The notes beneath the pieces are model-generated. The model searched no databases. It had not been told where the DNA came from and was given only the letters and a program-made list of their open reading frames with translations. From Acidobacteriota bacterium (lineage in GTDB: Bacteria > Acidobacteriota > Terriglobia > Versatilivoradales > Versatilivoraceae), in assembly GCA_028875575.1 (NCBI GenBank), contig JAPPDF010000092.1, positions 1 to 59,817 on the forward strand: DNA of 59,817 nucleotides, given 5' to 3'. Made by a program: the position numbers and the translations under genes. Below are positions 42,901-58,428 of this stretch, piece after piece; the first letter of the stretch is position 1, and every line of letters begins with the position of its first letter.

Positions 42901-45900
42901 TTGACGAACCCATTCTTCGAACAACCCGTCCTCAACTCGCCTTACGAGTACCCCAAACGACACTGGGAGCTGGATAAAACCGGCCAGCCGACTCAGAGGA
43001 TCATCGACAGCCGCCGACCGGCCGATTTCATCACACCAATCCCAAAGCCAAAAAAGCAAAAGGCGGCCAAGACACAAGCCAAATTGATATTCGATGAGGG
43101 GAAGGGTCTATCGACCGAGAAACAGCAGTACGAGCACACCGCAATTATCAATGCAGTTCGTCAACAAGTCGATCAGTGGCGGAAACTCCCAGACCCGAAT
43201 CAATGGCAAGTCACCCCGGAGACAGCCCGTCTGGTCCGTCACTGGCGGCACCACCGATTCACCGGTATTCGCCCTTTCTTTTGCCAGGTTGAAGCCCTGG
43301 AGACCGCCGTTTGGCTCACTGAAGTGGCGCCGCAGGCCGGTCCCAGAGGCAAGCGGTTTCTCGAACATCTTGCCAATACCAATAATGAAGCCAATCCGGG
43401 CCTTTCTCGGTTGGCTCTCAAGTTGGCGACCGGAGCAGGCAAAACCACCGTCATGGCCATGTTGATTGCCTGGCAGACCATCAATGCGGTCCGCCGCCCC
43501 CAGAGTCCCAGGTTCACCCGCGGCTTTCTGGTGGTCACCCCGGGGATCACCATCAAGGACCGCCTGCGCGTGCTGCAGCCCAACGATCCGGACAGCTATT
43601 ACCAAAGCCGTGAGCTGGTTCCGAGCGACATGCTCCCCGATCTGGAAAAGGCGAAGATTGTCATCACCAACTATCACGCTTTCAAGCGACGTGAGCGCCT
43701 GCCACTGTCCAAGGGCGGCCGGTCCCTGCTTCAGGGGCGGGGCGAATCGCTGAAAACCCTGGAAACCGAGGGGCAGATGCTCCAGCGGGTCATGCCCGAG
43801 CTCATGGGAGTCAAGAAAGTCCTGGTTCTCAACGATGAGGCACACCACTGCTATCGCGAAAAGCCGGGCGAGAAGGAGGAAGGCACGCTCAAGGGAGATG
43901 ACCGCAAGGAAGCCGAAAAAAACAGGGAAGCCGCCCGATTGTGGATATCGGGACTGGAAATCGTCGGCAGGAAACTGGGCATCAACCGCGTGATAGATCT
44001 TTCGGCGACGCCCTTCTTTCTGCGCGGTTCGGGCTATGTCGAAGGTACCTTGTTCCACTGGACCATGAACGACTTTTCGCTCATGGACGCCATCGAATGC
44101 GGCATCGTCAAATTGCCCCGGGTGCCTGTGGCCGACAATATCCCCGGCGGTGACTCTCCCAAGTTTCGCAACCTGTGGGAACACATCCGCACCCGGATGC
44201 CGAGGAAGGGGAGTGGCAAGGCCAATTCCCTCGATCCCCTCAGCCTGCCCGTGGAGCTTCAAACCGCCCTGGAAGCCCTCTACGGCCACTACCGGAAGAT
44301 CTTCGACCTTTGGGAAACAGCGGGCATTGAAGTACCGCCCTGCTTCATCGTGGTCTGCAACAACATTTCAACCTCCAAACTAGTCTACGACTATATCTCC
44401 GGCTTTCACCGCAAGAACGAAGGCGGCTCCACTTCACTCCGAAACGGGCGACTGGAGCTATTTCGCAACTTTGACGAGCATGGTAACCCGTACCCGAGGC
44501 CTCGGACCCTCCTGATAAACAGTGAGGAACTGGAGTCCGGCGACGCGCTGGACCGGGGCTTTCGTAAGATGGCCGCCGATGAGATCGACCGCTTTCGGAG
44601 GGAAATCATCGAGCGCACCGGCGACCGCCTCCAGGCCGAGAAAATCAGCGACCAGGACCTGCTCCGCGAGGTCATGAACACCGTGGGCAAACCCGGCCGG
44701 CTGGGAGATTCGATCCGCTGCGTGGTGTCGGTGTCGATGCTAACCGAAGGATGGGATGCCAACACCGTCAGCCACGTGCTGGGCGTGCGCGCCTTCGGCA
44801 CCCAGTTGCTATGCGAACAGGTGGTTGGCCGGGCTTTGCGCCGCCAATCCTACGACCTCAATGATTGCGGCAAGTTCAACGTCGAGTACGCCGATGTCCT
44901 GGGCATCCCCTTCGACTTCACGGCCAAGCCTGTTGTGGTAGAGCCAGTGCCGCCGCGAGAGACTGTTCAGGTAAAGGCCGTGCGGCCCGAACGGGACCCA
45001 CTGGAAGTCCGCTTCCCGCGAGTGGCCGGATACCGGGTGGAGTTGCCCCAGGAGCGGCTCAAGGCCCACTTCATTCCTGACTCGGTGTTGCACCTCACGC
45101 CGGACCTGGTTGGTCCGTCGATCACCAGGAACCAGGGGATCATCGGTGAGGGTGTCGATCTCAACTTGGTTCACACAAACGACCTGCGCCCCTCGACCCT
45201 GCTCTTCCATCTCACCCACCGGCTGCTCGACACCAAGTGGCGCGACCCGGGTGAAGAACCCAGGCTCTATCTTTTCGGGCAGCTCAAGCGTATCACCAGG
45301 CAATGGCTCGAAAGCTGCCTCGTCTGCAAAGGCGGCACCTACCCTGCCCAGCTCATGTACCAGGAACTGGCCGACATGGCCTGCGGGCGCATCACGGACG
45401 CCATAACTCAAGCGGAAATCGAGAGCCGGCCGGTCAAGGCGGTGCTGGATCCCTACAACCCGTTCGGCTCGACAGCCCACGTGAATTTCAATACGACCAG
45501 GACCAGCCGATGGGAGACCGATGCCCGCCGCTGCCACGTCAACTGGGTCGTTCTCGATAGCGACTGGGAAGCTGAATTCTGCCGCGTGGCCGAATCCCAC
45601 CCTCGCGTCAGGGCATACGTCAAGAACCACAATCTGGGCCTGGAGGTTCCCTACCGCTACGGCTCCGAAACCCGGACCTATCTCCCGGACTTCATCGTTC
45701 TGGTCGACGACGGCCGTGGTCAAGACGATCTCCTGCACCTCGTCGTCGAGATCAAGGGCTATCGAAGGGAGGATGCCAAGGAGAAGAAGGCCACCATGGA
45801 CACCTACTGGGTGCCCGGGGTGAACCGTCATGGCCGCTACGGCCGCTGGGCCTTTGCCGAACTTACGGACGTTTACGAGATGCAGTCGGACTTCGAGGCC

Positions 45901-46050
45901 ATAGTGGAACGGGCGTTCGACCAGATGATCGAAAGAGCGATAATTGGGCGTGAACGGCAGGCTGCCGAGGCCATGAGAGTCATGCGTGAGTTGCAAGGCA
46001 AGTTGCGCGTTGGACGCAAGTTGACGCGAGATGAAATGAATGAGCGTTGA
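42901..46050 (+). CDS. Type III-like restriction endonuclease subunit (Res)
   Basis: Restriction-modification helicase-nuclease, 1049 residues, resembling the BPTD_3080 type III restriction enzymes. Walker A is ATGAGKT (residues 176-182), the DEAH box LNDEAHH at 310-316 and motif III LSATPFF at 367-373. The C-terminal PD-(D/E)XK nuclease shows TYLPDFIVL and VVEIKGYR (about 929-950). It should translocate along DNA and cut when the partner Mod finds unmethylated sites. The start is TTG with AGAGGAG upstream. Its last 11 bases overlap a PIN-domain gene, with Mod next. Confidence 0.9.
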   Translation: MTNPFFEQPVLNSPYEYPKRHWELDKTGQPTQRIIDSRRPADFITPIPKPKKQKAAKTQAKLIFDEGKGLSTEKQQYEHTAIINAVRQQVDQWRKLPDPNQWQVTPETARLVRHWRHHRFTGIRPFFCQVEALETAVWLTEVAPQAGPRGKRFLEHLANTNNEANPGLSRLALKLATGAGKTTVMAMLIAWQTINAVRRPQSPRFTRGFLVVTPGITIKDRLRVLQPNDPDSYYQSRELVPSDMLPDLEKAKIVITNYHAFKRRERLPLSKGGRSLLQGRGESLKTLETEGQMLQRVMPELMGVKKVLVLNDEAHHCYREKPGEKEEGTLKGDDRKEAEKNREAARLWISGLEIVGRKLGINRVIDLSATPFFLRGSGYVEGTLFHWTMNDFSLMDAIECGIVKLPRVPVADNIPGGDSPKFRNLWEHIRTRMPRKGSGKANSLDPLSLPVELQTALEALYGHYRKIFDLWETAGIEVPPCFIVVCNNISTSKLVYDYISGFHRKNEGGSTSLRNGRLELFRNFDEHGNPYPRPRTLLINSEELESGDALDRGFRKMAADEIDRFRREIIERTGDRLQAEKISDQDLLREVMNTVGKPGRLGDSIRCVVSVSMLTEGWDANTVSHVLGVRAFGTQLLCEQVVGRALRRQSYDLNDCGKFNVEYADVLGIPFDFTAKPVVVEPVPPRETVQVKAVRPERDPLEVRFPRVAGYRVELPQERLKAHFIPDSVLHLTPDLVGPSITRNQGIIGEGVDLNLVHTNDLRPSTLLFHLTHRLLDTKWRDPGEEPRLYLFGQLKRITRQWLESCLVCKGGTYPAQLMYQELADMACGRITDAITQAEIESRPVKAVLDPYNPFGSTAHVNFNTTRTSRWETDARRCHVNWVVLDSDWEAEFCRVAESHPRVRAYVKNHNLGLEVPYRYGSETRTYLPDFIVLVDDGRGQDDLLHLVVEIKGYRREDAKEKKATMDTYWVPGVNRHGRYGRWAFAELTDVYEMQSDFEAIVERAFDQMIERAIIGRERQAAEAMRVMRELQGKLRVGRKLTRDEMNER

Positions 46051-46465
46051 AAATTTCATTGACACTAACGTCTTCGTGTATCAGCTTGAGCGACTTGACA
46101 CCCGCAAGGCCGCGATTGCAGAACATTTGATCCGGCATGGGATAGCGAGCGGAACTGCCTGTATCAGTTCTCAGGTCGTCCAGGAATGTCTCAACACGGC
46201 GATTCGTAAGGCGGAAATTAAGCTGAACAGGAATGAGATGGAAAAGTACCTGCAATCTGTGCTCGCGCCCTTGTTGCGGGTTCAGCCGAGTCTTCGCCTC
46301 TATCGATCATCCCTGGACATCCAGTCGCGTTATCAGTTTAGCTTCTACGACAGCCTGATCGTTGCCGCCGCGCTCGAAGCGGGCTGTAAAACCCTCTACA
46401 GCGAAGACCTGCAGCACGGACAGCAAATTGACGGAGTGACCATCGCAAACCCGTTCAGGACATGA
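46040..46465 (+). CDS. PIN-domain protein between Res and Mod
   Basis: PIN-fold ribonuclease-like protein of 141 residues. The acidic active-site residues expected for the fold are present: Asp in NFIDTNVFVY, Glu in VVQECLN and Asp in SFYDSLIVAAAL, with a final acidic group in YSEDLQHG. It resembles VapC toxins but has no antitoxin gene beside it; it overlaps the end of res by 11 bases and sits 8 bases before mod. It could be an orphan toxin held in check by the RM genes, or a phage-response effector. Confidence 0.85.
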   Translation: MSVENFIDTNVFVYQLERLDTRKAAIAEHLIRHGIASGTACISSQVVQECLNTAIRKAEIKLNRNEMEKYLQSVLAPLLRVQPSLRLYRSSLDIQSRYQFSFYDSLIVAAALEAGCKTLYSEDLQHGQQIDGVTIANPFRT

Positions 46466-46473
46466 GCTGACCG

Positions 46474-49314
46474 ATGGCGAAAACATCAAGGCCCAGGAAG
46501 CCCAAAGTCGTGGCGACCCTCACCCACGGCAAGGTCAAGCGCACCAACATTCCCACGGCCGAGTACCAGGCGGTGATGGCGGAGGACGACCGCAATCCCA
46601 TCCAGGTCGCCTATCAGCGCCGCAACCGGGACCTCGACCCGCAGCTAGTCTGGCGCGGCAAGGACCACCAGGACTGGTCGGATCTGGTGGTGCAGGCGCC
46701 GCCGCTATTCATTCAGGAAAAGGTGCATCCGAAGGTGCTGATCGACGACCTACGGCAGCGAAGCAAAGAGAGGAAGAAGGAAGACGGCAGATCCCCCTTA
46801 CAGGCCGACCTGTTCGCCGACTTCAACGGTCTGCCCAGCGAAGCGGCCGCCACCGAGTTCTACCAGCACGACGCCAACTGGTCGAACCGGATGATCCTCG
46901 GGGACAGCCTGCAGGTGATGGCGTCACTGGCGGAGCGGGAGGGGCTGCGCGGCAAGGTGCAATGTATGTATATCGACCCACCGTATGGCATCAAGTTCAA
47001 CTCCAACTTCCAGTGGTCTACCACCAGCCGCGATGTCAAGGACGGCAATGTCCTGCATATCACCCGCGAGCCGGAGCAGGTGAAGGCATTCCGGGATATC
47101 TGGCGGGATGGGATTCACTCCTATCTGACTTATCTGCGGGATCGATTGACAGTGGCGCGAGACTTATTGGCGGACAGTGGGTCGGTCTTCGTACAGATCA
47201 GTGACGAAAATGTGCATCTCTTGAGGATACTGGTCGACGAGGTCTTTGGCCCACAAAACGCAGTTGCGACGATTGTCTGGAAAAAGGGCGCTCCAAGCAG
47301 TAAGACAATTAAGAACGCATTCAACTACATTCTCTGGTACGCAAAGGACGTTGATGCCTGCAAGGTCCGCAAACTGTATAGATCCCGCGAGGTCAATGAA
47401 GGTTCTACAGAGGATCCTAAGAAGCTCGCCTTATGGGGAGAACTTCCTGACGGCATAACTAGACCGCTGACAACTGACGAGAAACGGGCTCCATGGCTCG
47501 TGCCCGAAGGAACACGAGTATTCAGAATTCAGGATCTAGAAGGGACGGGGGAACACTTTGCCGTTGAGATGAACGGAAATAGTTACTGGCCGCGCAAAGG
47601 CCGTCGTTGGCGAGGCAATCCGGAGCAGTTCCAGAGGCTGAAGTACGCCGGGCGCATTTCCGTCACTGACAAGGAGGGCCTTGGCTTTAAGTTTTTTGTC
47701 GTTGAGGATTCACCTGTGATTGAGTTTACGAACATGTGGGATGACACTGCGGGTAACGTTCAGGACATGATCTATGTCGTCCAAACGAATGCAAAAATAG
47801 TCAGCAGGTGCTTGCTGTTGGCTACCGACCCCGGCGACCTCGTCCTCGATCCTACCTGTGGCTCTGGTACCACCGCGTACGTCGCCGAGCAATGGGGACG
47901 CCGCTGGATCACCATTGACACTTCCAGGGTCGCTTTGGCGTTGGCCCGCTCCCGCGTCATGGGCTCCCGCTTCCCCTACTACCTTCTCGCCGACAGCCGC
48001 GACGGACAAATCAAGGAAGGCGAGCTTGTTCAGAAGGTTCCTTCGGAAGCTCCTACCTACAGCGACATTCGTCACGGTTTCGTGTACGAACGCGTCCCTC
48101 ACATCACTCTCAAGTCCATCGCCAACAATACCGAAATCGACGTGATCTGTGAGAAGCATGAGGAGCGGTTGGCACCGCTCCGCAACCGGTTGTCGGTGGC
48201 TATTGGTCGGACCAAAACACTTGAAGAGTGGGAAATTCCGCGAGGAATCCCCCAGGAATGGACTGAGGCGGCGCTTCCTATGCATGAAGCTTTCTGGAAG
48301 GCGATAGTCGCTCGTCAGCGCGAAATCGACGCCTCGATCGCCGCCAAGGCCGACTACGAATACCTCTACGACAAGCCTTACGAAGACAAGAAAAAAGTCC
48401 GCGTTGCCGGACCTTTTACGGTGGAAAGCCTTTCGCCCCACCGCCTTCTGGGCGTGAATGAGGACGACGAACTCATTGAACAGGCCGATGATCGAGCTAG
48501 AAACGTCGCGGAAGCCCGGCTCGGCTACGGCGACACTCAGGACTTCACCGGGTTGATACTTGACAATCTCAAGACCTCCGGCGTCCAGCAAGCCCACAAG
48601 GAGGACCGCATCGCCTTCTCGTCTCTCAGACCCTGGCCCGGTGATCTCGTCTGCGCCGAGGGAACCTACGTCGAAGGCAACGCCGATGCCGGCCCCCAGA
48701 GACGCGCCGGCGTCTTCATCGGCCCCGAATTCGGCACTGTTTCCCGACCCGATCTCGTGCAAGCCGCCCGAGAAGCCGCCGACGCAGACTTCGACGTCCT
48801 GATCGCCTGCGCCTTCAACTACGACGCCCACGCCTCTGAGTTCAGCAAACTGGGCCGCATTCCCATCCTCAAGGCCCGCATGAACGCCGACCTCCACATG
48901 GCCGACGACCTCAAGAACACCGGCAAGGGCAACCTCTTCGTCATCTTTGGCGAACCGGATATCGACATCATCGACGCGGAAGACAACCAAATCCAAGTCA
49001 AGGTCAACGGCGTGGACGTCTTTCACCCAAACACCGGCGAGATCCGCAGCGACAACGCCGACGGCATCGCCTGCTGGTTCGTCGACACCGACTACAACCA
49101 GGAGAGCTTCTTCGTCCGCCACGCCTACTTCCTCGGCGCCAATGACCCCTACAAATCCCTCAAGACCACCCTAAGGGCCGAAATCAACCAGGAAGCCTGG
49201 GAAACCCTCCACAGCGACACCTCCCGGCCGTTCCCCAAGCCCAATTCCGGCCGAATTGCCGTCAAGGTCATCAACCACCTCGGGGATGAAGTGATGAAGG
49301 TCTTTCGGGTGTGA
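46474..49314 (+). CDS. Type III-like DNA methyltransferase subunit (Mod)
   Basis: Site-specific DNA methyltransferase of 946 residues, the modification and recognition partner of Res. Motif IV is YIDPPYGIKF (about 166-174) and motif I LDPTCGSGTTAYVAE (about 457-471); this order is that of beta-class N6-adenine or N4-cytosine methyltransferases, with about 290 residues between for target recognition. The C-terminal ~400 residues are not recognised and may bind Res. It is much longer than classical EcoP1 Mod, as usual in this subfamily. A second PIN gene follows. Confidence 0.9.
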   Translation: MAKTSRPRKPKVVATLTHGKVKRTNIPTAEYQAVMAEDDRNPIQVAYQRRNRDLDPQLVWRGKDHQDWSDLVVQAPPLFIQEKVHPKVLIDDLRQRSKERKKEDGRSPLQADLFADFNGLPSEAAATEFYQHDANWSNRMILGDSLQVMASLAEREGLRGKVQCMYIDPPYGIKFNSNFQWSTTSRDVKDGNVLHITREPEQVKAFRDIWRDGIHSYLTYLRDRLTVARDLLADSGSVFVQISDENVHLLRILVDEVFGPQNAVATIVWKKGAPSSKTIKNAFNYILWYAKDVDACKVRKLYRSREVNEGSTEDPKKLALWGELPDGITRPLTTDEKRAPWLVPEGTRVFRIQDLEGTGEHFAVEMNGNSYWPRKGRRWRGNPEQFQRLKYAGRISVTDKEGLGFKFFVVEDSPVIEFTNMWDDTAGNVQDMIYVVQTNAKIVSRCLLLATDPGDLVLDPTCGSGTTAYVAEQWGRRWITIDTSRVALALARSRVMGSRFPYYLLADSRDGQIKEGELVQKVPSEAPTYSDIRHGFVYERVPHITLKSIANNTEIDVICEKHEERLAPLRNRLSVAIGRTKTLEEWEIPRGIPQEWTEAALPMHEAFWKAIVARQREIDASIAAKADYEYLYDKPYEDKKKVRVAGPFTVESLSPHRLLGVNEDDELIEQADDRARNVAEARLGYGDTQDFTGLILDNLKTSGVQQAHKEDRIAFSSLRPWPGDLVCAEGTYVEGNADAGPQRRAGVFIGPEFGTVSRPDLVQAAREAADADFDVLIACAFNYDAHASEFSKLGRIPILKARMNADLHMADDLKNTGKGNLFVIFGEPDIDIIDAEDNQIQVKVNGVDVFHPNTGEIRSDNADGIACWFVDTDYNQESFFVRHAYFLGANDPYKSLKTTLRAEINQEAWETLHSDTSRPFPKPNSGRIAVKVINHLGDEVMKVFRV

Positions 49315-49329
49315 GAGAGCGGATATTTG

Positions 49330-49818
49330 ATGAAACGTCGTGTATACATCGAAACCACCGTTATCAGCTACCTGACGGCCCGCCCGGCGCGCGACGTAGT
49401 TGTTGCTGGACATCAGCAGAGTACCCGAGACTGGTGGACGACCGCGGCGGAAAGGTTCGAGTTGGTCATTTCCGAGTTGGTTCGCCAAGAGGCCGGCGCT
49501 GGTGACCCTGACGCCGTCCACACCCGGCTCACCCTGCTCGCTTCACTTTCGTCGCTCGACGCGACTGCAGAAGCGCAGGAATTAGCCGAACGACTGATCA
49601 GGGCCAGGGCCGTGCCCGAGACCGCAATGCGAGACGCCGCGCACATTGCTATCGCCGCAGCCAACGGCGTCGAGTATTTTGTCACTTGGAACTTCCGCCA
49701 CCTCGCCAATGCGGTGACAAGGCCGCGGATCGAGTCGGTCTGTCGGCTAGCTGGTTTTGAATCTCCGGTGATCTGCACCCCTGAAGAATTAATGGAGGAC
49801 ATCGACGATGAGAAATGA
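49330..49818 (+). CDS. VapC-family PIN-domain toxin-like protein
   Basis: PIN-domain protein, about 162 residues, starting MKRRVYIETTVISYL. The first acidic residue is Glu (YIETT), typical of one VapC subfamily; other active-site acids appear in SELVRQEAG and MRDAAHIAIAAANG. It probably cleaves RNA. It overlaps the next small gene by 11 bases, giving a toxin-first order. The Met at 49327 is an alternative start. Confidence 0.85.
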   Translation: MKRRVYIETTVISYLTARPARDVVVAGHQQSTRDWWTTAAERFELVISELVRQEAGAGDPDAVHTRLTLLASLSSLDATAEAQELAERLIRARAVPETAMRDAAHIAIAAANGVEYFVTWNFRHLANAVTRPRIESVCRLAGFESPVICTPEELMEDIDDEK

Positions 49819-50011
49819 CCCTATTGTGTCTGAGGTTCGCGCAATACGAGACGCACTTGCAGCCCAGTGCGGCCACGACATCAAGAAAATCTTCCAGAAA
49901 CTACGGGAACAACAGGCCGAGTCGGACCTGCAGTACGTGCGCTACCCCGCCCGTCGGGCGGCTCCAACCGAAGGTGTACGTGTACCCACCCCACATAAAA
50001 ACACCCGTTGA
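49808..50011 (+). CDS. Small partner of the PIN protein, possible antitoxin
   Basis: Protein of 67 residues beginning MRNDPIVSEVRAIRDALAAQ, followed by DIKKIFQKLREQQ and a less conserved tail. Similar short proteins are often found just after this type of PIN gene, so I infer an antitoxin or stabilising partner. It has a single long helix and no DNA-binding motif that I can see. The overlap with the upstream gene implies coupled translation. Confidence 0.6.
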   Translation: MRNDPIVSEVRAIRDALAAQCGHDIKKIFQKLREQQAESDLQYVRYPARRAAPTEGVRVPTPHKNTR

Positions 50012-50139
50012 ATCCGTCAGATCAAGCAACGGGTCATTGTGGCTGATCGCGTGAGGAAATCATTGGAAAGTCTGTCTGCCCTGACCTGCATCATTCCGTG
50101 CGATTAACATTTTGCGGCGCAGACTCGTAGTGTTCAATA

Positions 50140-50387
50140 GGGGACGTTGTTGAAATAGTGGAATTACCCGGTCTGGTGTTTCTCTCGACGCCTAGAGTGG
50201 AAGGAAAAGTCCAGGATACCGTTGTGGGAACTGCTTGGTGCAACCATTCGGACGCATTTTGAGGACGCATCGCCGTGTCTGTGCCTGCGAATGTGCCGAA
50301 GTGCTCGGGAAGGCATCTGCTTTGCCGTTTTGGTCAGTCAGGAATAACAAACTGGGAGAGTTATTTCACTAATTCAAGAACGTCCCC
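50140..50387. mobile_element. MITE-like element, GGGGACGTT family, 248 bp
   Basis: The termini are GGGGACGTTGTTGAAATAG at the left and, inverted, GGGGACGTTCTTGAATTAG at the right, followed by similar GTGGAATTAC / GTGAAATAAC segments. They match the ends of the 16609-16724 element. The interior is different and longer, with no open frame. It separates the PIN pair from the AlbA-like remnant and so was probably inserted within the defence island. Confidence 0.7.
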
Positions 50388-50402
50388 ATTTTTCCCCCGA
50401 GC

Positions 50403-50618
50403 GTCGAAAGCGTCCGAGCCGGTGGTCATCCGCGGTCGAGGAAGGAGTCGATGGCAAACTACATGCAGGTCATGAGCTTCCTGGAGTAGCGGGGCAGGGG
50501 CTGGCCCGTGATGCGCAGGGCAATGCGTGGGTTCAATAGGACCGAGCCCGAAATCGTTCACGACGACCGGGCCAAGCGCGTCAGGGTAACCTTCCACCTC
50601 GCCTCACCCGAGGCATGA
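50403..50618 (+). pseudogene. Remnant of an AlbA/Schlafen ATP-binding protein
   Basis: The frame ending at TGA 50616-50618 reads YMQVMSFLE, an in-frame TAG, then RGRGWPVMRRAMRGFN, TEPEIVHDD and RVRVTFHLASPEA. This resembles the C-terminus of AlbA/Schlafen-type ATP-binding proteins (RGRGWP..RRAM, TEPE..., VRVTF). Only about 70 codons are left, and the 5' part is missing next to the MITE, so it is a decayed fragment. A read-through error at the TAG is an alternative. Confidence 0.5.
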
Positions 50619-50619
50619 A

Positions 50620-52761
50620 GTGCAATTCCGAATCGCCAACACCTTCATCGACAGCCTCGCCAAGCTCACTGGCAACGAGCAGAAGGCGGCAAAGACCACT
50701 GCCTTCGATCTTCAATTGAATCCGGCTCGGCCCGGATTGCGATTCCACAAGCTGGATAAATCCCAAGATCCCAATTTCTGGTCCGTCCGCGTCAGCCGCG
50801 ATGTCCGAATGATTGTGCACCGAGACCAGAACAGCCTGATGCTCTGTTACGTGGATCACCACGACAGCGCCTATAAATGGGCTGAGCGGCGCAAACTGGA
50901 AACCCACCCCAAAACGGGCGCGGCCCAACTGATTGAATTGCGAAAAACGATTCAAGAAATCACCGTGCCCAGTTGTGCGGCAACGGATCAGGAAGTGTCA
51001 CCCAAGCCACCCCTCTTTTCAGGCATCTCCGAGAACGATCTGCTGAGCTACGGCGTCCCGGCTGAATGGTTGGACGATGTACGCAACGCCAATGAGGACA
51101 ATTTTCTGGAACTGACCGATCATCTGCCGAGCGAGGCAGGGGAGGCACTGCTCGAGTTGGCTGTAGGTGTAACGCCGCAAATCGTTCAGCCGGAAGTTTC
51201 GGCCGCCGTTCCCTTTGAAATATCCGAGTCCCGGAAAGTAGCAGAATCCACAGCGCAATACGGGGTAGCCGCCGATCCATTCGATCATCCTGACGCACAG
51301 CGCCGCTTCCGGTTGATGAGCAATATGGAAGAACTGGAGCGCGCCCTCGACTATCCCTGGGACAAGTGGGCAGTCTTTCTTCATCCCGCGCAACGGCAAA
51401 TCGTGGAGACCGACTACGGCGGCCCGTTTCGCGTGGCCGGTGCCGCCGGCACAGGAAAGACCATCGTGGCAATCCACCGGGCCGTGTTTCTCACGCGCGC
51501 CAACCCGCACGCCAGGGTTCTGCTAACCACGATTTCAGACACTTTGGCTGATGTTCTGCGGACGAAACTCCGGCGGTTGATTTACAACGAGCCTCGGCTT
51601 GCAGAACGTCTGGAAGTCGACGCCATCGACAGGGTTGGCGAGCGGCTCTTTCGTGCTCAGCTCGGCCGCCCAAGGATCGCCAACCGCGAAATGGTTCGGG
51701 ACCTACTTACGAGAACTGCCGGAGAAGCAGAGACACCGCACCAATTCAGCTCTCGATTCCTGTTGAGCGAGTGGGACAACGTCGTTGACGCCTGGCAGTT
51801 GGATCATTGGGAAGCCTACCGAGACGCAAAGCGGCTTGGCCGCAAGACACGCTTGCCTGTAGAACAGCGCATGACGCTCTGGTCCCTCTTTGCACGGGTC
51901 AAGGCTGAACTTCGGGACCGTGGTCTGCGCACCCAGGCCGAACTGTTCAGCTTGCTGGTGGCGACTCTCAAGGATCGACGGAACCCACCGTTCGACTTCG
52001 TGATCGTGGACGAGGCACAGGACGTCAGCGTTGCCCAACTGCGTTTTCTGGCGGCATTGGGTGCCCACAGGCCAAACGGCCTCTTTTTTGCAGGCGACTT
52101 AGGGCAGCGGATCTTTCAAACGCCGTTTTCCTGGAAAGCGCTGGGGGTCGATGTTCGGGGAAGATCTCAGACTCTCAAACTCAACTATCGAACCTCCCAT
52201 CAGATCCGGATGCAGGCAGATCGATTGCTCGGTCCCGAACTTGCCGATGTCGATGGCAACGTAGAGGATCGGCGCGGGACGGTCTCAGCCTTCAGTGGCG
52301 AACGCCCGGCAATTCATCTGTTCGAGACCGAGCAAGAAGAAGGTGCGGCTGTTGCCGCATGGTTGCGGGAACGCCGAGACAGCGGTGTGGGGACTCAGGA
52401 AATGGCAATATTCGTGCGCTCGGGGAAGGAACTTGACCGAGCGCGCCGGGCGGTCCGCGACGCCGGGTTCTCGTTCCAGGTCCTGGATGAAGGCGTGGAG
52501 ACGAACAACGACTGCGTATCAATCAGCACCATGCACCTAGCTAAAGGATTGGAGTTCCGCGCTGTTGCGGTCATGGCTTGTGACGACGAGGTGATTCCAC
52601 TACAGGAACGGATCGAAACCGTCGCGGATGACGCGGACCTCGAGGATGTCTACAGCACAGAGAGACACTTGCTTTATGTCGCCTGCACCCGTGCTCGGGA
52701 CTATTTGATGATATCGGGAGTCGCCCCCGCGTCCGAGTTTCTGGATGACTTGCAGATGTGA
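50620..52761 (+). CDS. RelE-like domain fused to a UvrD-type helicase
   Basis: Protein of 713 residues. Residues 1-95 look like a RelE/ParE toxin (IANTFIDSLAKLTGNEQKAA, PGLRFHKLDKSQDPNFWSVR, VSRDVRMIVHRDQN). From about 265 there is an SF1 helicase with Walker A GAAGTGKTIVAIHRA, motif II FVIVDEAQDVS (about 459), AGDLGQRIFQ, MHLAKGLEFRAV and VACTRARDYL. The middle (100-260) is unassigned. No separate antitoxin is seen, so the RelE part may work as a nuclease within the helicase rather than as a free toxin. The start is GTG, directly after the AlbA remnant. It is convergent with the helicase-DarT-ARH operon. Confidence 0.85.
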   Translation: MQFRIANTFIDSLAKLTGNEQKAAKTTAFDLQLNPARPGLRFHKLDKSQDPNFWSVRVSRDVRMIVHRDQNSLMLCYVDHHDSAYKWAERRKLETHPKTGAAQLIELRKTIQEITVPSCAATDQEVSPKPPLFSGISENDLLSYGVPAEWLDDVRNANEDNFLELTDHLPSEAGEALLELAVGVTPQIVQPEVSAAVPFEISESRKVAESTAQYGVAADPFDHPDAQRRFRLMSNMEELERALDYPWDKWAVFLHPAQRQIVETDYGGPFRVAGAAGTGKTIVAIHRAVFLTRANPHARVLLTTISDTLADVLRTKLRRLIYNEPRLAERLEVDAIDRVGERLFRAQLGRPRIANREMVRDLLTRTAGEAETPHQFSSRFLLSEWDNVVDAWQLDHWEAYRDAKRLGRKTRLPVEQRMTLWSLFARVKAELRDRGLRTQAELFSLLVATLKDRRNPPFDFVIVDEAQDVSVAQLRFLAALGAHRPNGLFFAGDLGQRIFQTPFSWKALGVDVRGRSQTLKLNYRTSHQIRMQADRLLGPELADVDGNVEDRRGTVSAFSGERPAIHLFETEQEEGAAVAAWLRERRDSGVGTQEMAIFVRSGKELDRARRAVRDAGFSFQVLDEGVETNNDCVSISTMHLAKGLEFRAVAVMACDDEVIPLQERIETVADDADLEDVYSTERHLLYVACTRARDYLMISGVAPASEFLDDLQM

Positions 52762-52899
52762 CTTTGGCCTGTGTTCGTCAAGCGGGATGAAAGGGCTTCT
52801 ATAAATCGACCGCACCCATCTTGCCCGGATCATTTTTCTCAATGGAGTACGGTCCGGAAAGCCTCAACAGGCTGAACAACAAACCTCGAAGAAGCTCTC

Positions 52900-52934
52900 T
52901 CAATAGATCCTTTTCAAAGGAGAGGATTTATTGA
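52900..52934. terminator. Hairpin between convergent defence genes
   Basis: An imperfect inverted repeat, TCAATAGATCCT on the left and AGGATTTATTGA on the right, lies between the ends of the RelE-UvrD gene (52761) and the ARH gene (52951). It could end transcription from both sides, but there is no following T run on either strand, so the call is weak. Confidence 0.35.
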
Positions 52935-52950
52935 TAGGTCACAAAAGGCT

Positions 52951-54672
52951 TTATCGACGTTTACGTTGGCGTGCGAGTTTTGCCTTGGCGATTATTGCAG
53001 CGAAACCAATTGCACTGTCGACAGACCGTGTTTGATCTATGCAGTAGTTCAGGGACTTTCCAAGAGTATAGTCATCAAAACCAGATGAAATCACATCATC
53101 CGTCCATGAATCAACCGTACCCCGGTGAATTTGATTGGACCGCTGAGAAGGCGAATCTCTACCTAACTTCCCAGCTTGCTTTTCTGAACGACGATCCTGA
53201 AATGCCAATCCTTTCTGTCGCGGTTCATTGCCACTACGTGTAGTTGTCACATCTCTTTTTGTTTCCGCCCGCTGCCTAGGATCTGGAAGTTGAGAAAACA
53301 CAATTCTATCCTGTAGGTTTGACTTGCGCTTGGCCAGAATCGTCTGGCCAAAAGGCAATTCAAACCACTGCCAAACGGCATCACGTGAAGCGTATTCCGT
53401 ACCTACTGAGGTTAGGGGTCCTAGCCCGGCAATCGCGAGCTTACCGTTAAACCATCCTATTGAAGAATTCTGCCTAGCAGGTGGATCCCAGTTTCCAAGA
53501 TCAGGGTATGTGAAACTGTCTTGATGTTGGCCGCGAGAAATGGCAGCTAGCCTCTTTGCCTCACTGACAATATAACTATGGTCCTGCAAGGGCCAATCGG
53601 GCTCCCGCCTCGAAATCACGCCCAGTAGTGCGCCTCCCATAGTGGCAATAGTGTCGGTATCACTCTCAAGTTCATTAACCGCAGTTTGTAAAGCGTCTTC
53701 TACTTCAAAATTACGAAAAAGATACGCGAGTACAATTGCTGCGAGTGCGGTTTTCAATCCAGATCCCCGGAACTGTGGCTTCAAGCATCCCAATTGCCTA
53801 ACTATCTGCTTGTAGCCTTCTACGGGTGAAGAGTCTTTCAACTCTGTGACAAACTCAAGATCCCGTAGACCATCATCCCTGATCTTTGTAACTGCACGAC
53901 TTAATGACACCCCTGCACTAGTTTCCCACGCCGGCTTCCAAAAAGCGGCTAGCTGAGGTTCTTCTGCAACCAGGCGAGGCAGGTCCAAGAACCGATCAAT
54001 GTAAACTGCCCATTCTTCGGGTCTCGGCAATTCACGTTTCCTAAATGCATCTTCCAAGCAGAGAGCATGAAAAATAGCTCCACAGAATCCATGCGGATGG
54101 CCGTGAGTGACAATAGCATCCCTTAGGACGTCCACAATCAAGGAATCACCGCCGCTCGACGAGGACCAAACATGTGGCTGAATTCTCATGGCAGCCCCGT
54201 TACCACCACTATCTGTATACTTCTTTCCGCCGCGATTGTAGAAATTGGAATACCAATTCACGCTACGTCGTGACAAGCTAACTGCTGCAGTTTTGGTTCC
54301 CAGGCCGGCACCCAGAGCGTATGTTGGCCACACCGTCAATTCTACCTTCGCAAATGCCTCTACATCGAATGATCCGTCTCCGCGAATCGACCTTGCGACG
54401 GCAAGCCTTATTTGAGTGTCGTCGGAATATGTTCCAGCCAACAGATTCACCCTTGGGCCACCTCGACCACCGATGATGCGTTTCCACGCTACAGGTTTAG
54501 TTATTCTACTAACCCCTGTTCGTCGAACTACACCCCTGAGCCCGTGCGACAACTCGGTGATCCAACCTAATGCATCGCCAGTTGCCGCCCAAAGTGCAGA
54601 TTGGACAACAGCCCGTTCCCGCGCAACATGCGGTGTTGATTCCCATGTTGAAGATTGGTTTTCGAGATTCAA
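52951..54672 (-). CDS. ADP-ribosylglycohydrolase (ARH/DraG-type) with C-terminal extension
   Basis: Predicted ADP-ribosyl hydrolase, 573 residues. ARH signatures are GDALGWI (about 32-38), the metal-binding SDDTQ (83-87) and SDTDTIATMGGALLG (about 338), with HGHP in between. The core ends near 370; about 200 residues follow, including a basic, probably disordered part. The typical ARH is about 300 residues. The start is TTG in a TTGA overlap with the DarT-like gene, with AAAGGA 8 bases upstream; the frame is open to 54789 inside that gene. It is probably the antitoxin of the operon, removing ADP-ribose from DNA; its activity is inferred. Confidence 0.82.
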   Translation of the reverse strand: MNLENQSSTWESTPHVARERAVVQSALWAATGDALGWITELSHGLRGVVRRTGVSRITKPVAWKRIIGGRGGPRVNLLAGTYSDDTQIRLAVARSIRGDGSFDVEAFAKVELTVWPTYALGAGLGTKTAAVSLSRRSVNWYSNFYNRGGKKYTDSGGNGAAMRIQPHVWSSSSGGDSLIVDVLRDAIVTHGHPHGFCGAIFHALCLEDAFRKRELPRPEEWAVYIDRFLDLPRLVAEEPQLAAFWKPAWETSAGVSLSRAVTKIRDDGLRDLEFVTELKDSSPVEGYKQIVRQLGCLKPQFRGSGLKTALAAIVLAYLFRNFEVEDALQTAVNELESDTDTIATMGGALLGVISRREPDWPLQDHSYIVSEAKRLAAISRGQHQDSFTYPDLGNWDPPARQNSSIGWFNGKLAIAGLGPLTSVGTEYASRDAVWQWFELPFGQTILAKRKSNLQDRIVFSQLPDPRQRAETKRDVTTTRSGNEPRQKGLAFQDRRSEKQAGKLGRDSPSQRSNQIHRGTVDSWTDDVISSGFDDYTLGKSLNYCIDQTRSVDSAIGFAAIIAKAKLARQRKRR

Positions 54673-55328
54673 TTTGGGCGTCCTTTGAATTTTGCACTTG
54701 ACACAATCACATCGACGTCGTCCAAGCCAAACTCTTGGAGCCACCCACCTACCACGTCGTGATGATCGTTTTCCTCTACATAAATACACTTGAGATACTT
54801 CGTATCCAGTGAATTAGGATAAAGAACTTCAGCCTGTTCGCAGGTTGGCAAATGGGTTGGTCTACCTAGGCGCATCACAGACCACCGTTCTTTGCGATGT
54901 ACGACTGGTGCAAAAAGTGCTTGTAATCCGTGCGCTCCAACACCACGCTTACACAGCTGGTAGGAATTGTTGGTCGTTGCGAAGAGCACGTCGTCATGAG
55001 TCATAATGGTGGAGCCAAACTCTAGAATGCACCACCATACATCGGCATTATTGTGCCAGCGTTTGGATACCCCTAGAAACCGCGTATTGATCTCAGAAAT
55101 AGACAGATTTACATAATCTAGCCAATTCGCGCTTTTGTCAAAATCGGCTGCGGCTTCCGGACGCCTTGCAGCATTAACATGCAAGACATGCTCCAATAAA
55201 TTTTCACTTTGAAGCCTGCAACGTGACAATAGTGCTTTGACAGCAAGCGTACCTACCAACCCTCGATTGGTTGTAAAGTGCAACGCGCTCTCAATCCCTC
55301 GCTGACGGATAATTTCTTGTAAGCTCAA
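54669..55328 (-). CDS. DarT-like DNA ADP-ribosyltransferase
   Basis: Protein of 219 residues matching the DarT (DUF4433) pattern: ALHFTTNRGLVGTL (15-28), VNAARRP (51-57), LDYVNLSISEIN (70-81), ATTNNSYQL (117-125) and CEQAEVLYPNSL (163-174). DarT transfers ADP-ribose from NAD+ to a base in single-stranded DNA and is a toxin with antiphage activity; a catalytic Arg (55 or 56) and Glu167 lie near the positions known for Thermus DarT. The partner antitoxin is normally the DarG macrodomain; here the next gene is an ARH. The TTG start overlaps the helicase stop by 4 bases. GC is lower than in neighbouring core genes. Confidence 0.78.
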   Translation of the reverse strand: MSLQEIIRQRGIESALHFTTNRGLVGTLAVKALLSRCRLQSENLLEHVLHVNAARRPEAAADFDKSANWLDYVNLSISEINTRFLGVSKRWHNNADVWWCILEFGSTIMTHDDVLFATTNNSYQLCKRGVGAHGLQALFAPVVHRKERWSVMRLGRPTHLPTCEQAEVLYPNSLDTKYLKCIYVEENDHHDVVGGWLQEFGLDDVDVIVSSAKFKGRPN

Positions 55329-56728
55329 ACCCCTATCTCACGAAATGTACCGTCCACAAAATAGCTCACAAGTCTGGATTCCTCTCCTGGCTTGTAACCT
55401 ATGACAACTTCCTTTCTTGCTCGGGCAACGGCAACGGCAAGGAGACGGCGAAGCACAAACACTCTGTCGTCAACTTCCACGTCATCATGGGGCGTATTTT
55501 TATCGTTGAGGCCAAGAATGAATACATAGTCAAATTCGAGGCCCTTTGCAGAATTAAACGTAGAAAGTGCTACGTTCTCCGGCCCGTCTGGCCACTCTGA
55601 TTTACGTGTAATGCCCACGTAAGGAATGTTATGGATCTTCAAACGGCGCTCAATTTCTGAGAACCATTTTCCACCCTTCGGTTTCAAAAAGGCGACCGAT
55701 TCTCGCCCCAGATCGACCTTATCGATAATATAGTTTATAGCCCATTCAGCTTGTTTATTGTATAGCCCATGGAGCACAATCGGCAGTTGCCCCTGCCTTT
55801 GAGCGGCGTGTAAATTTGGCAGAGCTCCGTCTCCTTCGACGCTTATTCCATCTAGAATTCCAGCAGCAAAGGTAGCTATCTCTCGAGTATTTCGATGATT
55901 CGTCCGCAGCATATGTGAGCGCTCCCGCCGTACTAAGTACCCTGCCTCCGCCCAGGTAAATCCTCGAGCGTAAATACGTTGGACTGTATCAATAACAAAT
56001 GTAATTGCGTGTTCGGCTGCGAGATGATGACGAATAGCCCTCAGTTGATTTGCAGAAAAATCTTGGCTTTCATCGACGACCACAACGTCGTATTCAATAG
56101 GATTTTCGGCACGCATCATTTCGATGGAAACCATGTTCCAGTCTAATGCTTGTTGATTGTCCAGCCATGCTTGGTACGGCTCAACAACCTCGGAGAGAAT
56201 TCGCCGGCGTAACTCTCGTCCTATCCGTGGACGGGTCCCTCGACCAGTCCGTTCCACAGTGATGTAGTCTTCGATGTCTTCGGGAGCGAATCTCCCTGTT
56301 AGATACTCGACCTCATTGACGACATAGTCAGGGGTAAGTTCACTTATCCGTTGCGCGGCATTTCTCAAGTGGACCCTCGCTAAGTTGTCTTGGACCTCGG
56401 GAATATCAAGGTGTGACATGGCCCATCGGCCGAAAGTTTCAATCTCAAGGTCGATGTGCATATTTTCTGAAACTTGTTGTTCGGCGAGCGCCCGAACGTA
56501 TCCTGCGAGTGTCCGATTGAAGGTCAATACTAGTGCTCGTATAGGCTCAGGGTCACCTTGGCGTTTTCGCCGAGCTGCAAACATAAAAAACAGCGACTTG
56601 AGCCTCAGGAGTGCAGTCGATGTTTTGCCACTACCTGCCGCACCGCATATGATCTCAACCCCAAGGCGATTTTGACTGATAATAGGCAGTTGTTCCGAAA
56701 CCGCACTGATTTGTGGGAGTGTTTTCAA
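55325..56728 (-). CDS. Small UvrD-like SF1 helicase, first gene of the DarT operon
   Basis: SF1 helicase of 467 residues. Walker A is GAAGSGKTSTALL (29-41), motif Ia VLTFNRTLAGYVRAL, motif II VVVVDESQDFSANQ (214-227), motif III FVIDTVQRIY, then MLRTNHRNTREIATFA, STFNSAKGLEFDYVFI and VAVARARKEVVIGY. It is shorter than UvrD (about 720) and apparently lacks most of the 1B and 2B insertions. It resembles the helicase half of the RelE fusion across the island. It starts the three-gene operon; unwinding could give DarT its single-stranded substrate, which is inference. Confidence 0.85.
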   Translation of the reverse strand: MKTLPQISAVSEQLPIISQNRLGVEIICGAAGSGKTSTALLRLKSLFFMFAARRKRQGDPEPIRALVLTFNRTLAGYVRALAEQQVSENMHIDLEIETFGRWAMSHLDIPEVQDNLARVHLRNAAQRISELTPDYVVNEVEYLTGRFAPEDIEDYITVERTGRGTRPRIGRELRRRILSEVVEPYQAWLDNQQALDWNMVSIEMMRAENPIEYDVVVVDESQDFSANQLRAIRHHLAAEHAITFVIDTVQRIYARGFTWAEAGYLVRRERSHMLRTNHRNTREIATFAAGILDGISVEGDGALPNLHAAQRQGQLPIVLHGLYNKQAEWAINYIIDKVDLGRESVAFLKPKGGKWFSEIERRLKIHNIPYVGITRKSEWPDGPENVALSTFNSAKGLEFDYVFILGLNDKNTPHDDVEVDDRVFVLRRLLAVAVARARKEVVIGYKPGEESRLVSYFVDGTFREIGV

Positions 56729-56907
56729 TATCCGATTCCCTTGATTTTTGGTAGATGAATAGCCACCCAGCTACATACCTGAATCACGACCCCAAAAACC
56801 AGAAAACCTTCCTGCCACATTTGGTGTTAATGTCGGGTATTTAGCATGTGCAATGACAGCAATCACCTCATAGCCCGCCTGGCAGGGATGGTAGCCTACT
56901 CAGAAGT
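56729..56907. other. Upstream region of the helicase-DarT-ARH operon
   Basis: A/T-richer gap of 179 bases before the operon start. No strong sigma-70 promoter stands out; TTGCAC with TTAACA 17 bases on (minus strand, near 56830-56860) is a weak candidate. Confidence 0.3.
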
Positions 56908-57243
56908 CTAGTTTCTCCCTTGAAACCCTTGCACAGTATATCCCGGATGGACTGAGTAGGCGTATACTCCTAGAGTTGAGGTCTTGACGAGGCGGTTTGG
57001 GGCACTGTAGCGGAAAAGGTAGTCCTTTAAGCCCTTTTGCTTCTCTTTCAGGGTCTCATAGAACTTCTCATGGCCCTGGATGCGCGACTGCTCCTCCAGC
57101 GGCATATGTTGGAACCGCTCCACGAACCCGTTGCTCCGAATCAGGCGGACCGGAGTGTTCCCGCGACCGATCACTTCGTATTGCAGGAAAAGTGAGTGCC
57201 TAGCTATCCTTCTACCCGTCCCCCGCTTGCTTCCTAGCATCAA
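56908..57243 (-). pseudogene. Fragment of an integrase-core transposase
   Basis: The reading SNGFVERFQHMPLEEQSRI, then FYETLKEKQKGLKDYLFRYSAPNR, is the C-terminal part of a DDE integrase-core transposase (SNGFVERFxxxLLEE is characteristic, with the catalytic Glu). The preceding ~40 residues do not fit the family and the rest of the gene is missing. It is a decayed IS fragment at the edge of the low-GC operon. Confidence 0.65.
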
Positions 57244-57258
57244 ACGCAGCCAAACACC

Positions 57259-58428
57259 TCACCCTCCCCCCATCAACCAATCCATGGTGAACCGGGCGAA
57301 GGTGATGGTCTCGTACGGTATCGACTTTCCACGTTCGTAGAGACAGCCGATCGATCCGTCCGGGAGGATTGCCAGGTTGGAGTAGGCCGAGCGGCCGGGG
57401 TTCAGGAGTCTTGAGACGGGCCAGGTTTTTCCCGAGTCGTAGCTGAGCCGCACTGTCAGGTCGACTCGGTCTGTCTTGCTGGCCGGATTCGAGAAGAGGA
57501 GCCGGGAGGGTGACTCGGCGGCGCCGTGTCCGACGTGGCGTATGAGGCTGGCTTGGCAGATCGGCTCGATGAGGGTCGGGTCGAAGGAGAGTTCGGACCA
57601 GGTGGCTCCGCCGTCCTGGCTGGTCGCCAGGGCCCGCATGCCTCCGCGGTCGGGCCTGCCGCCCTGGCGTCCCCAGTAGTTGCGCATGTTGATCAGGAGT
57701 GTTCCGTCGTCTTTCTCGATAACCTGGCACTCGTCGGTGTGCGGGGCCACGGCGGCGCCGAGCTGCCAGGTTTCCCCGTGATCGTCGCTGTAGAAGACAT
57801 GAGAGTACTGAACTCTCTCATCGCCCTCCTCGCCACTGCCCTTGCCATGGTCGCTGGGGATAACCAAGCGCCCCTTGTAGGGCTCGTGTTCAAGCTGAAT
57901 TCCGATTCCGGGGCCGGTCGCCACCCAGGTCCAGTCAGGTTTCTTGACGGCAGCGGTGATGTCGACAGGGTCTGACCAGCTCACTCCGTCATCGGTACTC
58001 TTCGTCACCAGAACGTCCTTGTTGTCTCGGCAGAAGGGGAGCCAGATGGTACCGGTTTCCCGGTCCACCACGGGACAGGGGTTCCCGATGGTGATCTCTT
58101 CCGTTCCTCCCTCCTCGTACACAATCTGCGGATCCGACCAGGTTCGACCGCCGTCGGTACTTCTCTTCAACAGCAGGTCGATGTCGCCGTGGTCGCGGCG
58201 ATTGTTCTTTCGACCTTCACAGAACGCCAGCAGACTGCCTTCCCTGGTGACGATCAAGGCCGGAATCCGGTAGGTGTGGTAGCCGTCTTCCCCACTCACA
58301 AACAGGTCAGCCTGGCTGGGGCCGGGGGAGGACTCCTGCGTTTCAGGTGGCGGTCCGCACCCGATGCCGAGAATCATGATTGCCACGGAAGCCTTGAGCA
58401 GGCCGTTGAGAGGTTTGCTTCGATTCAC
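57259..58428 (-). CDS. Sialidase (GH33-like) lipoprotein
   Basis: Predicted exo-alpha-sialidase, about 389 residues. The signal KASVAIMILGIGCGPPPE is a lipobox. Next come YHTYRIPALIV (an arginine of the triad), CEGRKNNRRDHGDIDLLL with an acidic active-site residue, and Asp boxes STDGGRTW, STDDGVSW, SDDHGETW and SQDGGATW. A C-terminal Glu/Tyr-containing part YERGKSIPYETITFARF resembles the family's tail. It releases sialic acids or related sugars from glycans. GTG at 58428 has AAGGAGG five bases upstream. Confidence 0.88.
   Translation of the reverse strand: MNRSKPLNGLLKASVAIMILGIGCGPPPETQESSPGPSQADLFVSGEDGYHTYRIPALIVTREGSLLAFCEGRKNNRRDHGDIDLLLKRSTDGGRTWSDPQIVYEEGGTEEITIGNPCPVVDRETGTIWLPFCRDNKDVLVTKSTDDGVSWSDPVDITAAVKKPDWTWVATGPGIGIQLEHEPYKGRLVIPSDHGKGSGEEGDERVQYSHVFYSDDHGETWQLGAAVAPHTDECQVIEKDDGTLLINMRNYWGRQGGRPDRGGMRALATSQDGGATWSELSFDPTLIEPICQASLIRHVGHGAAESPSRLLFSNPASKTDRVDLTVRLSYDSGKTWPVSRLLNPGRSAYSNLAILPDGSIGCLYERGKSIPYETITFARFTMDWLMGGG

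Follow-up and report, generated by a model that had tools for sequence, protein, structure and literature searches.

The stretch of DNA considered here (the window, 59,817 nucleotides) is positions 1 to 59,817 of contig JAPPDF010000092.1 of assembly GCA_028875575.1 from an Acidobacteriota bacterium. On its minus strand it carries a cassette of three genes for a small helicase, a DarT-like ADP-ribosyltransferase (ART) and an ADP-ribosylhydrolase (ARH). All three genes begin with TTG, and at the two junctions, which have the sequence TTGA, the stop of one gene and the start of the next overlap by 4 bp. A sequence-only reading of this DNA had described three minus-strand genes with 4-base overlaps, encoding a UvrD-like helicase, a DarT protein and a DraG/ARH hydrolase. 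The coordinates and the two TTGA junctions bear this out, and each of the three products exceeds the cut-offs of the corresponding Pfam families. The cassette contains the following features:

55325..56728, minus strand: gene 1, small superfamily 1 (SF1, UvrD-like) helicase, 467 amino acids, TTG start; Pfam UvrD_C and UvrD-helicase, conserved columns
54669..55328, minus strand: gene 2, DarT1-like ADP-ribosyltransferase, 219 amino acids, TTG start overlapping the helicase stop (TTGA); PF14487
55161-55163, 54969-54971 and 54828-54830, minus strand: catalytic codons of DarT for Arg56, Asn120 and Glu167, respectively, placed by an alignment of 51 sequences
52951..54672, minus strand: gene 3, ARH/DraG-fold ADP-ribosylhydrolase, 573 amino acids, TTG start overlapping the DarT stop (TTGA); PF03747
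53524..54633, minus strand: ARH catalytic core, residues 14-383 of gene 3, from the structure model and the fold match to 1t5j
53308..53475, minus strand: small beta domain C-terminal to the ARH core, residues ~400-455, kept in the subfamily, with confident beta strands at 405-450
52954..53115, minus strand: C-terminal helical tail of ARH, residues 520-573, with a basic end in most members

The GC content of the triplet genes (52951-56728) is 0.49, compared with 0.58-0.62 in the surroundings. The longest reading frame of the ARH gene begins at 54789, 117 bp upstream of 54672 and within the DarT gene; since both the relatives and the 4-bp overlap point to the TTG at 54672, the latter is the likelier start.

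The product of gene 1 matches UvrD_C (3.3e-15) and UvrD-helicase (6.7e-10). It possesses a complete set of SF1 motifs (Walker A, DExQ motif II and motifs III-VI), with GAAGSGKT at residues 29-36 as Walker A and DESQD at residues 219-223 as motif II, and these motifs are conserved throughout the family. Its closest defence profiles are those of GajB-type UvrD helicases (2.3e-21 for the GajB profile). By its motifs gene 1 is an SF1 UvrD-like helicase, for which unwinding or 3'-5' translocation is predicted.

The match of gene 2 to PF14487 has an E value of 2.9e-16 and 60.3 bits (cut-off 22.5). An AlphaFold model of the protein, built with 51 sequences in the alignment, has a mean pLDDT of 91.6, and its top fold match is DarT1 of E. 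coli C7 (8baq; Z 24.4, root-mean-square deviation (rmsd) 1.8 Å over 192 residues, 26% identity), while DarT2 structures score Z 16.4-17.6. A profile of the triplet DarTs compared with the chains of known structures ranked them in the same way (6e-12 for 8baq; 0.49 for the best DarT2 chain). Residues R52, N104 and E152 are essential in C7 DarT1, where N104 stands in the place of the base-coordinating H119 of DarT2 (PMC11543638). In 8baq the chain has the substitution E152A, and its residue indices are higher by one than the published numbers; with this offset applied, R56, N120 and E167 of the window DarT align with the three essential residues. All three are invariant in 51 of the 51 aligned DarTs, two of which are DarT1 proteins. 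The DarT profile A1 recognized four of six NADAR-linked DarTs with 33-56 bits and the other two with less than 10, and macrodomain-linked and other DarTs with at most 27 bits. Scores of another profile, A5, were excluded from the DarT1/DarT2 ranking because it contained two DarTs from DarT1-NADAR pairs.

As modelled, then, gene 2 is a protein of the ART fold, the presence of which had been left to be checked, with the predicted catalytic Arg and Glu in place. The assignment by the sequence-only reading to a DarT/DUF4433-like protein of the DarTG type stands as far as family and fold are concerned and needs correction as to subtype: on the model the protein is DarT1-like, nearer to DarT1 (guanine as target, NADAR as antitoxin) than to the thymidine-specific DarT2. 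Given DarT1-like residues and fold, guanine rather than thymidine is the predicted target. What is known of the family gives guanine in single-stranded DNA (ssDNA) roughly an even chance of being the base modified.

Gene 3 matches PF03747 (ADP_ribosyl_GH; 4.1e-31, 109 bits), over the Pfam cut-off. Its model consists of a confident core (residues 14-383), the small beta domain, a disordered linker and the helical tail. The core superimposes on 1t5j with Z 34.7 (295 residues, rmsd 2.3) and resembles MJ1187, ARH1, ARH3 and DraG, as well as the toxin/immunity ARHs 6dre (Z 30.0) and 8za7 (Z 31.0). In the family alignment D33, S83-D84-D85, GGNG 156-159, T189-H190 and D338-T339-D340 are invariant; the motifs of the binuclear metal site, the loss of which would have spoken against a hydrolase, are thus intact in the window protein and throughout the family. 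In the beta domain W436 is invariant and G442 and Q443 are nearly so; structure comparison of the model gave no identification for the fold of the C-terminal part. The score against the DraG equivalog TIGR02662 is 35.3 bits, under its cut-off of 337. From what is known of the family, the ARH is probably the antitoxin to DarT.

Whether the three genes travel together, as the sequence-only reading supposed, was answered by a scan with the DarT profile in one genome per species, which yielded 56 loci. Helicase, DarT and ARH are present in the same order and on the same strand in 52 of them. One further locus (L056) has DarT and ARH and is truncated by a contig end. The remaining three (L058-L060), with DarTs of ~25% identity and a NADAR partner, were considered as exceptions to the triplet pattern and rejected as such, being classical DarT1-NADAR (DarTG1) loci. 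The triplets occur in Alpha-, Beta- and Gammaproteobacteria, Actinomycetota, Acidobacteriota, Chloroflexota, Planctomycetota, Latescibacteria and others, and the gene order is kept even in very distant loci with DarT identities of 24-30% (L061-L064). In all, ~60 distinct full copies were seen, with some redundancy (L021 and L023 are near-identical; L008 and L043 lie on the same contig).

Four plasmid records were retrieved by a protein search, and all three that were opened (Cereibacter azotoformans, Salmonella enterica and Streptomyces tsukubensis) hold the triplet. Since DarT had been the query of the main survey, viral contigs were searched with the ARH profile. This retrieved four loci, three with the full triplet and one (L066) that begins at the ARH at a contig end; among the matches listed for the helicase profile in viral contigs there were unrelated helicases only. 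Neither DarT nor the helicase matched isolated phage records, and the phage copy L006, searched against complete genomes of E. coli, gave no match either.

Divergence of the three proteins is strongly correlated. Over 51 loci, tree-distance correlations are 0.89 for DarT-ARH and 0.95 for both DarT-helicase and ARH-helicase, against permutation maxima of 0.37-0.47 (999 permutations). An NTGA start-stop overlap is possible at 41 of 59 helicase/DarT junctions and 25 of 59 DarT/ARH junctions. The 104 neighbour proteins match 114 Pfam families, each at most four times (the commonest, phage integrase, four); since the neighbours share almost no family, the triplet is a sharply bounded unit. As a control, members of the DarT family at large were sought in 396 genomes from the same phylum as the window. 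DarT was present in 26 of these, with a helicase profile match beside it only in the window and in L107. The other DarT partners checked were macrodomain or NADAR proteins and one ARH, and the macrodomain- and NADAR-linked loci are without the helicase. A chance adjacency of three unrelated genes, for which nothing speaks beyond the single window viewed alone, is refuted by these neighbourhood data, that is, by the recurrence of the triplet, the correlated divergence and the conserved overlaps, and we give it practically no weight. The helicase-DarT-ARH triplet is, with near certainty, a conserved, co-inherited unit.

Several variants were observed during these searches. In L085 (3899-10082) a remote variant has the order DarT-helicase-DarT-ARH, its first DarT bearing an N-terminal hydrophobic segment, and in L086 (4877-10201) two divergent helicase genes accompany an 884-amino-acid ARH with no DarT detected. 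Frameshifted or split triplet genes are found for ARH in L006 (6676-8309), helicase in L025 (605-1999) and L046 (4548-5944), and DarT in L019 (6001-6659); they may reflect decay or assembly errors. In L057 (4481-6363) DarT is in two halves ~1.27 kb apart, the second of which ends a 550-amino-acid open frame. A macrodomain-DarT followed by a DUF1156-like methylase gene occurs in L113 (G132; 327-2106), and in L106 another DarT lies just upstream of the same macrodomain gene.

The genomic position of the window cassette was compared with that in genomes of the same genus. The features of the locus are:

52762..57254, no strand: inserted cassette; shared flanks stop at 52761 (in G649) and restart at 57255-57259 in five same-genus genomes
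~46800-57255 of the window: variable locus of the genus, corresponding to L127-L131 in relatives, with a sharp right border at 57255-57259
50620..52761, plus strand: neighbouring larger UvrD helicase with a weak RelE/ParE/HigB-like N-terminus, 713 amino acids, convergent with ARH and not part of the module
42901..49314, plus strand: neighbouring defence-type genes, namely a ResIII-type helicase (42901-46050), a PIN gene (46040-46465) and a type III methyltransferase (46474-49314)

The right border is the same in all five of the genomes compared. One of the relatives, G649, shares the RelE-UvrD helicase gene (50621-52761, 89%; L131:1435-3575) and has, in place of the triplet, a gene for a 706-amino-acid protein with no Pfam match and a P-loop-like motif. 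Others hold at this locus a HIT-fused type IV restriction-like helicase with a SprT-like gene, or a ThiF (E1-like) protein with a methyltransferase. In a helicase-profile search of six same-genus genomes, with the best four candidates per genome scored, the triplet helicase was not found. The RelE-UvrD helicase was considered as a further member of the module and rejected, as it stands beside two copies only (the window and L087) and G649 has it without the triplet. The window cassette is therefore an insertion of low GC content next to type III restriction-modification genes, at a variable locus whose cargo is of the defence type.

Elsewhere the triplet is found on diverse mobile elements. 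In a P2-like phage (L006) it is flanked on one side by the gene for the replication protein A (PF05840) and on the other by the portal/terminase genes; this cos-proximal position of P2 is a hotspot of anti-phage systems according to Rousset and colleagues (PMC9122126). It follows Zot-like and secretin genes of an inovirus in L065 and adjoins phage head genes in L005, and in L066 a Mu-like phage has its repressor and transposase next to the ARH. A conjugative plasmid carries the copy of Cereibacter, the one on the Streptomyces plasmid adjoins Tn7-like transposition genes, and in L016 a DpdF/PsyrT-like helicase is adjacent. The plasmid, prophage-hotspot and variable-locus positions give the module a mobile, defence-type context, in agreement with the defence role that the sequence-only reading had proposed, and a role in mobile conflict or defence is, judging from context, very probable.

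The presence of copies on plasmids and in phages of several unrelated types, together with the toxin-antitoxin composition, would also fit a plain addiction or stabilisation module, in which DarT is the poison, ARH the antidote and the helicase serves maintenance of the element, with no selected anti-phage role. We consider this unlikely, since many copies lie at varied places in chromosomal-sized contigs, the defence hotspot of P2 holds one, and the window locus swaps defence-type cargo among same-genus genomes. It can also be imagined that ARH and helicase repair or counteract, clearing ADP-ribosylation or blocked DNA made by others, while DarT acts in signalling or housekeeping. ARG-centred systems against viral ADP-ribosylation have indeed been proposed (PMC9503650), and the L086 locus keeps two helicases and an ARH with DarT undetected. 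The proposed ARG systems, however, are defined by having no linked ART (PMC9503650), whereas a catalytically intact DarT is present here in practically all copies, which makes this explanation very unlikely.

The reading we prefer is that of a horizontally mobile, toxin-antitoxin-like anti-phage module related to DarTG. We put about half of our belief in its core, a mobile DarTG-like module in which ARH is the enzyme that counters the toxin, and this estimate does not extend to all steps of the mechanism jointly. In the mechanism proposed, DarT would modify bases of ssDNA at the expense of NAD+, guanine being the likeliest target, and so block replication. In uninfected cells ARH would remove the mark, and possibly also bind the toxin, and thereby protect the cell. 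The helicase would engage abnormal or replicating foreign DNA and expose single strands or pass them on to DarT, with the result that on the DNA of the invader modification outpaces removal. Phage infection may be the trigger. That the helicase is an access or sensing factor for DarT seems to us as probable as not. Participation of a helicase in the mechanism as such is supported indirectly by a single case, L117 (5824-12084). There the SNF2 helicase HmaA, in an Hma-type defence island with a methylase and PDC-S19, is immediately followed by a DarT-ARH pair that lacks the UvrD helicase; this is a second DarT-ARH architecture with a different helicase.

ARH1 and DraG cleave ADP-ribose (ADPr) off the guanidino group of arginine, and the N2 of guanine is part of a guanidine-like group. 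By this resemblance, action of an ARH on a guanine-ADPr linkage is chemically reasonable, which is an argument and not evidence. A fuller proposal, that DarT systems have a third class, represented by the cassette, where ARH removes guanine-linked ADPr from DNA and a dedicated helicase directs the toxin onto invading DNA, is put forward as a tentative one, possible and somewhat short of probable.

Several observations weigh against the DarTG-like interpretation. When guanosine-linked ADPr on RNA was offered as substrate, NADARs were the sole family to remove it, and the ARH-like SCO5809 of S. coelicolor and human ARHs did not; the DarT antitoxins named are macrodomain or NADAR proteins (PMC11833690). 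The window DarT is only ~26% identical overall to DarT1. The position of DarT1 M71 is occupied by F84 in the window and by Phe, Tyr, Met or Leu across the family, and DarT1 Asp54 has no clear counterpart, so the specificity of this DarT may differ from that of DarT1. Finally, known defence genes are near some copies without being neighbours of the cassette in general.

The failure of the tested ARHs on guanosine-ADPr also favours a protein switch of the DraT/DraG type, in which the ART would mark a protein (the partner helicase, or a replication protein of host or phage) on arginine, ARH would remove the mark and the helicase would be the regulated effector. ARH1 and DraG are established arginine-ADPr hydrolases with a closely similar core, and the helicase is nearly always present. 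On the other hand, both its sequence and its fold make the transferase a DarT, and it has the DarT1 catalytic set and is nearest to an enzyme acting on DNA guanine, and protein extracts were not labelled by DarT2 (PMC5179494). We regard such a switch as fairly unlikely. Under the DarTG-like reading, ARH is absent from the described DarT antitoxins and the tested ARHs are inactive on guanine-ADPr, which makes the predicted reversal a sharp test.

No description of the helicase-DarT-ARH composition was found in the open-access literature, supplements not covered. In PADLOC-DB 2.0.0 DarT is matched weakly and ARH by no model, and therefore current annotation may miss the system. Its parts do recall several known ones. 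Gabija (GajB), Hma and other helicase-containing systems also pair a helicase with an effector, and the cassette helicase matches GajB profiles; unlike them, the cassette has neither the GajA nuclease (among the window proteins scanned around it) nor the Hma methylase or ATPase, and its effector is an ART. DraT-DraG likewise links an ART to an ARH-fold hydrolase, but the target of DraT is nitrogenase reductase, and the cassette ARH is far under the DraG equivalog cut-off. Tre1-Tri1 and the ART-ARH pair of Listeria each consist of an effector and its immunity protein, and their ARTs are not DarTs. As in the cassette, an ARH is partnered there with an ART toxin, and the cassette's ARH core matches 6dre and 8za7; the cassette differs in having a DarT as its ART and a helicase gene in the same operon.

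The closest likeness is to the DarTG systems. With DarTG2 (DarT2 and the macrodomain DarG) the cassette shares the DarT fold, the toxin-then-hydrolase order and occurrence in defence islands, whereas it has Asn120 for the DarT2 His, a weaker fold match, an added helicase and, by Pfam, no macrodomain in genes 1-3. The proposal that ARH occupies the place of the DarG macrodomain thus holds in composition, gene 3 being an ADP_ribosyl_GH protein. To DarTG1 (DarT1 and NADAR) it is similar in that the transferase is nearest DarT1 in sequence, fold and essential residues, the hydrolase gene follows the toxin gene, and the same enzyme-against-enzyme antitoxin logic is presumed. It departs from DarTG1 in having ARH instead of NADAR, an SF1 helicase gene in first position and DarTs ~22-27% identical to DarT1 proteins. 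A DarT1-like toxin with a constant ARH partner would imply either a new activity of the ARH family or a new DarT target, and the near-obligatory helicase offers a testable way of pointing a DNA-modifying toxin at foreign replication. Taken together, the cassette resembles a relative of the anti-phage DarTG systems that has so far gone undescribed and whose antitoxin is of another type.

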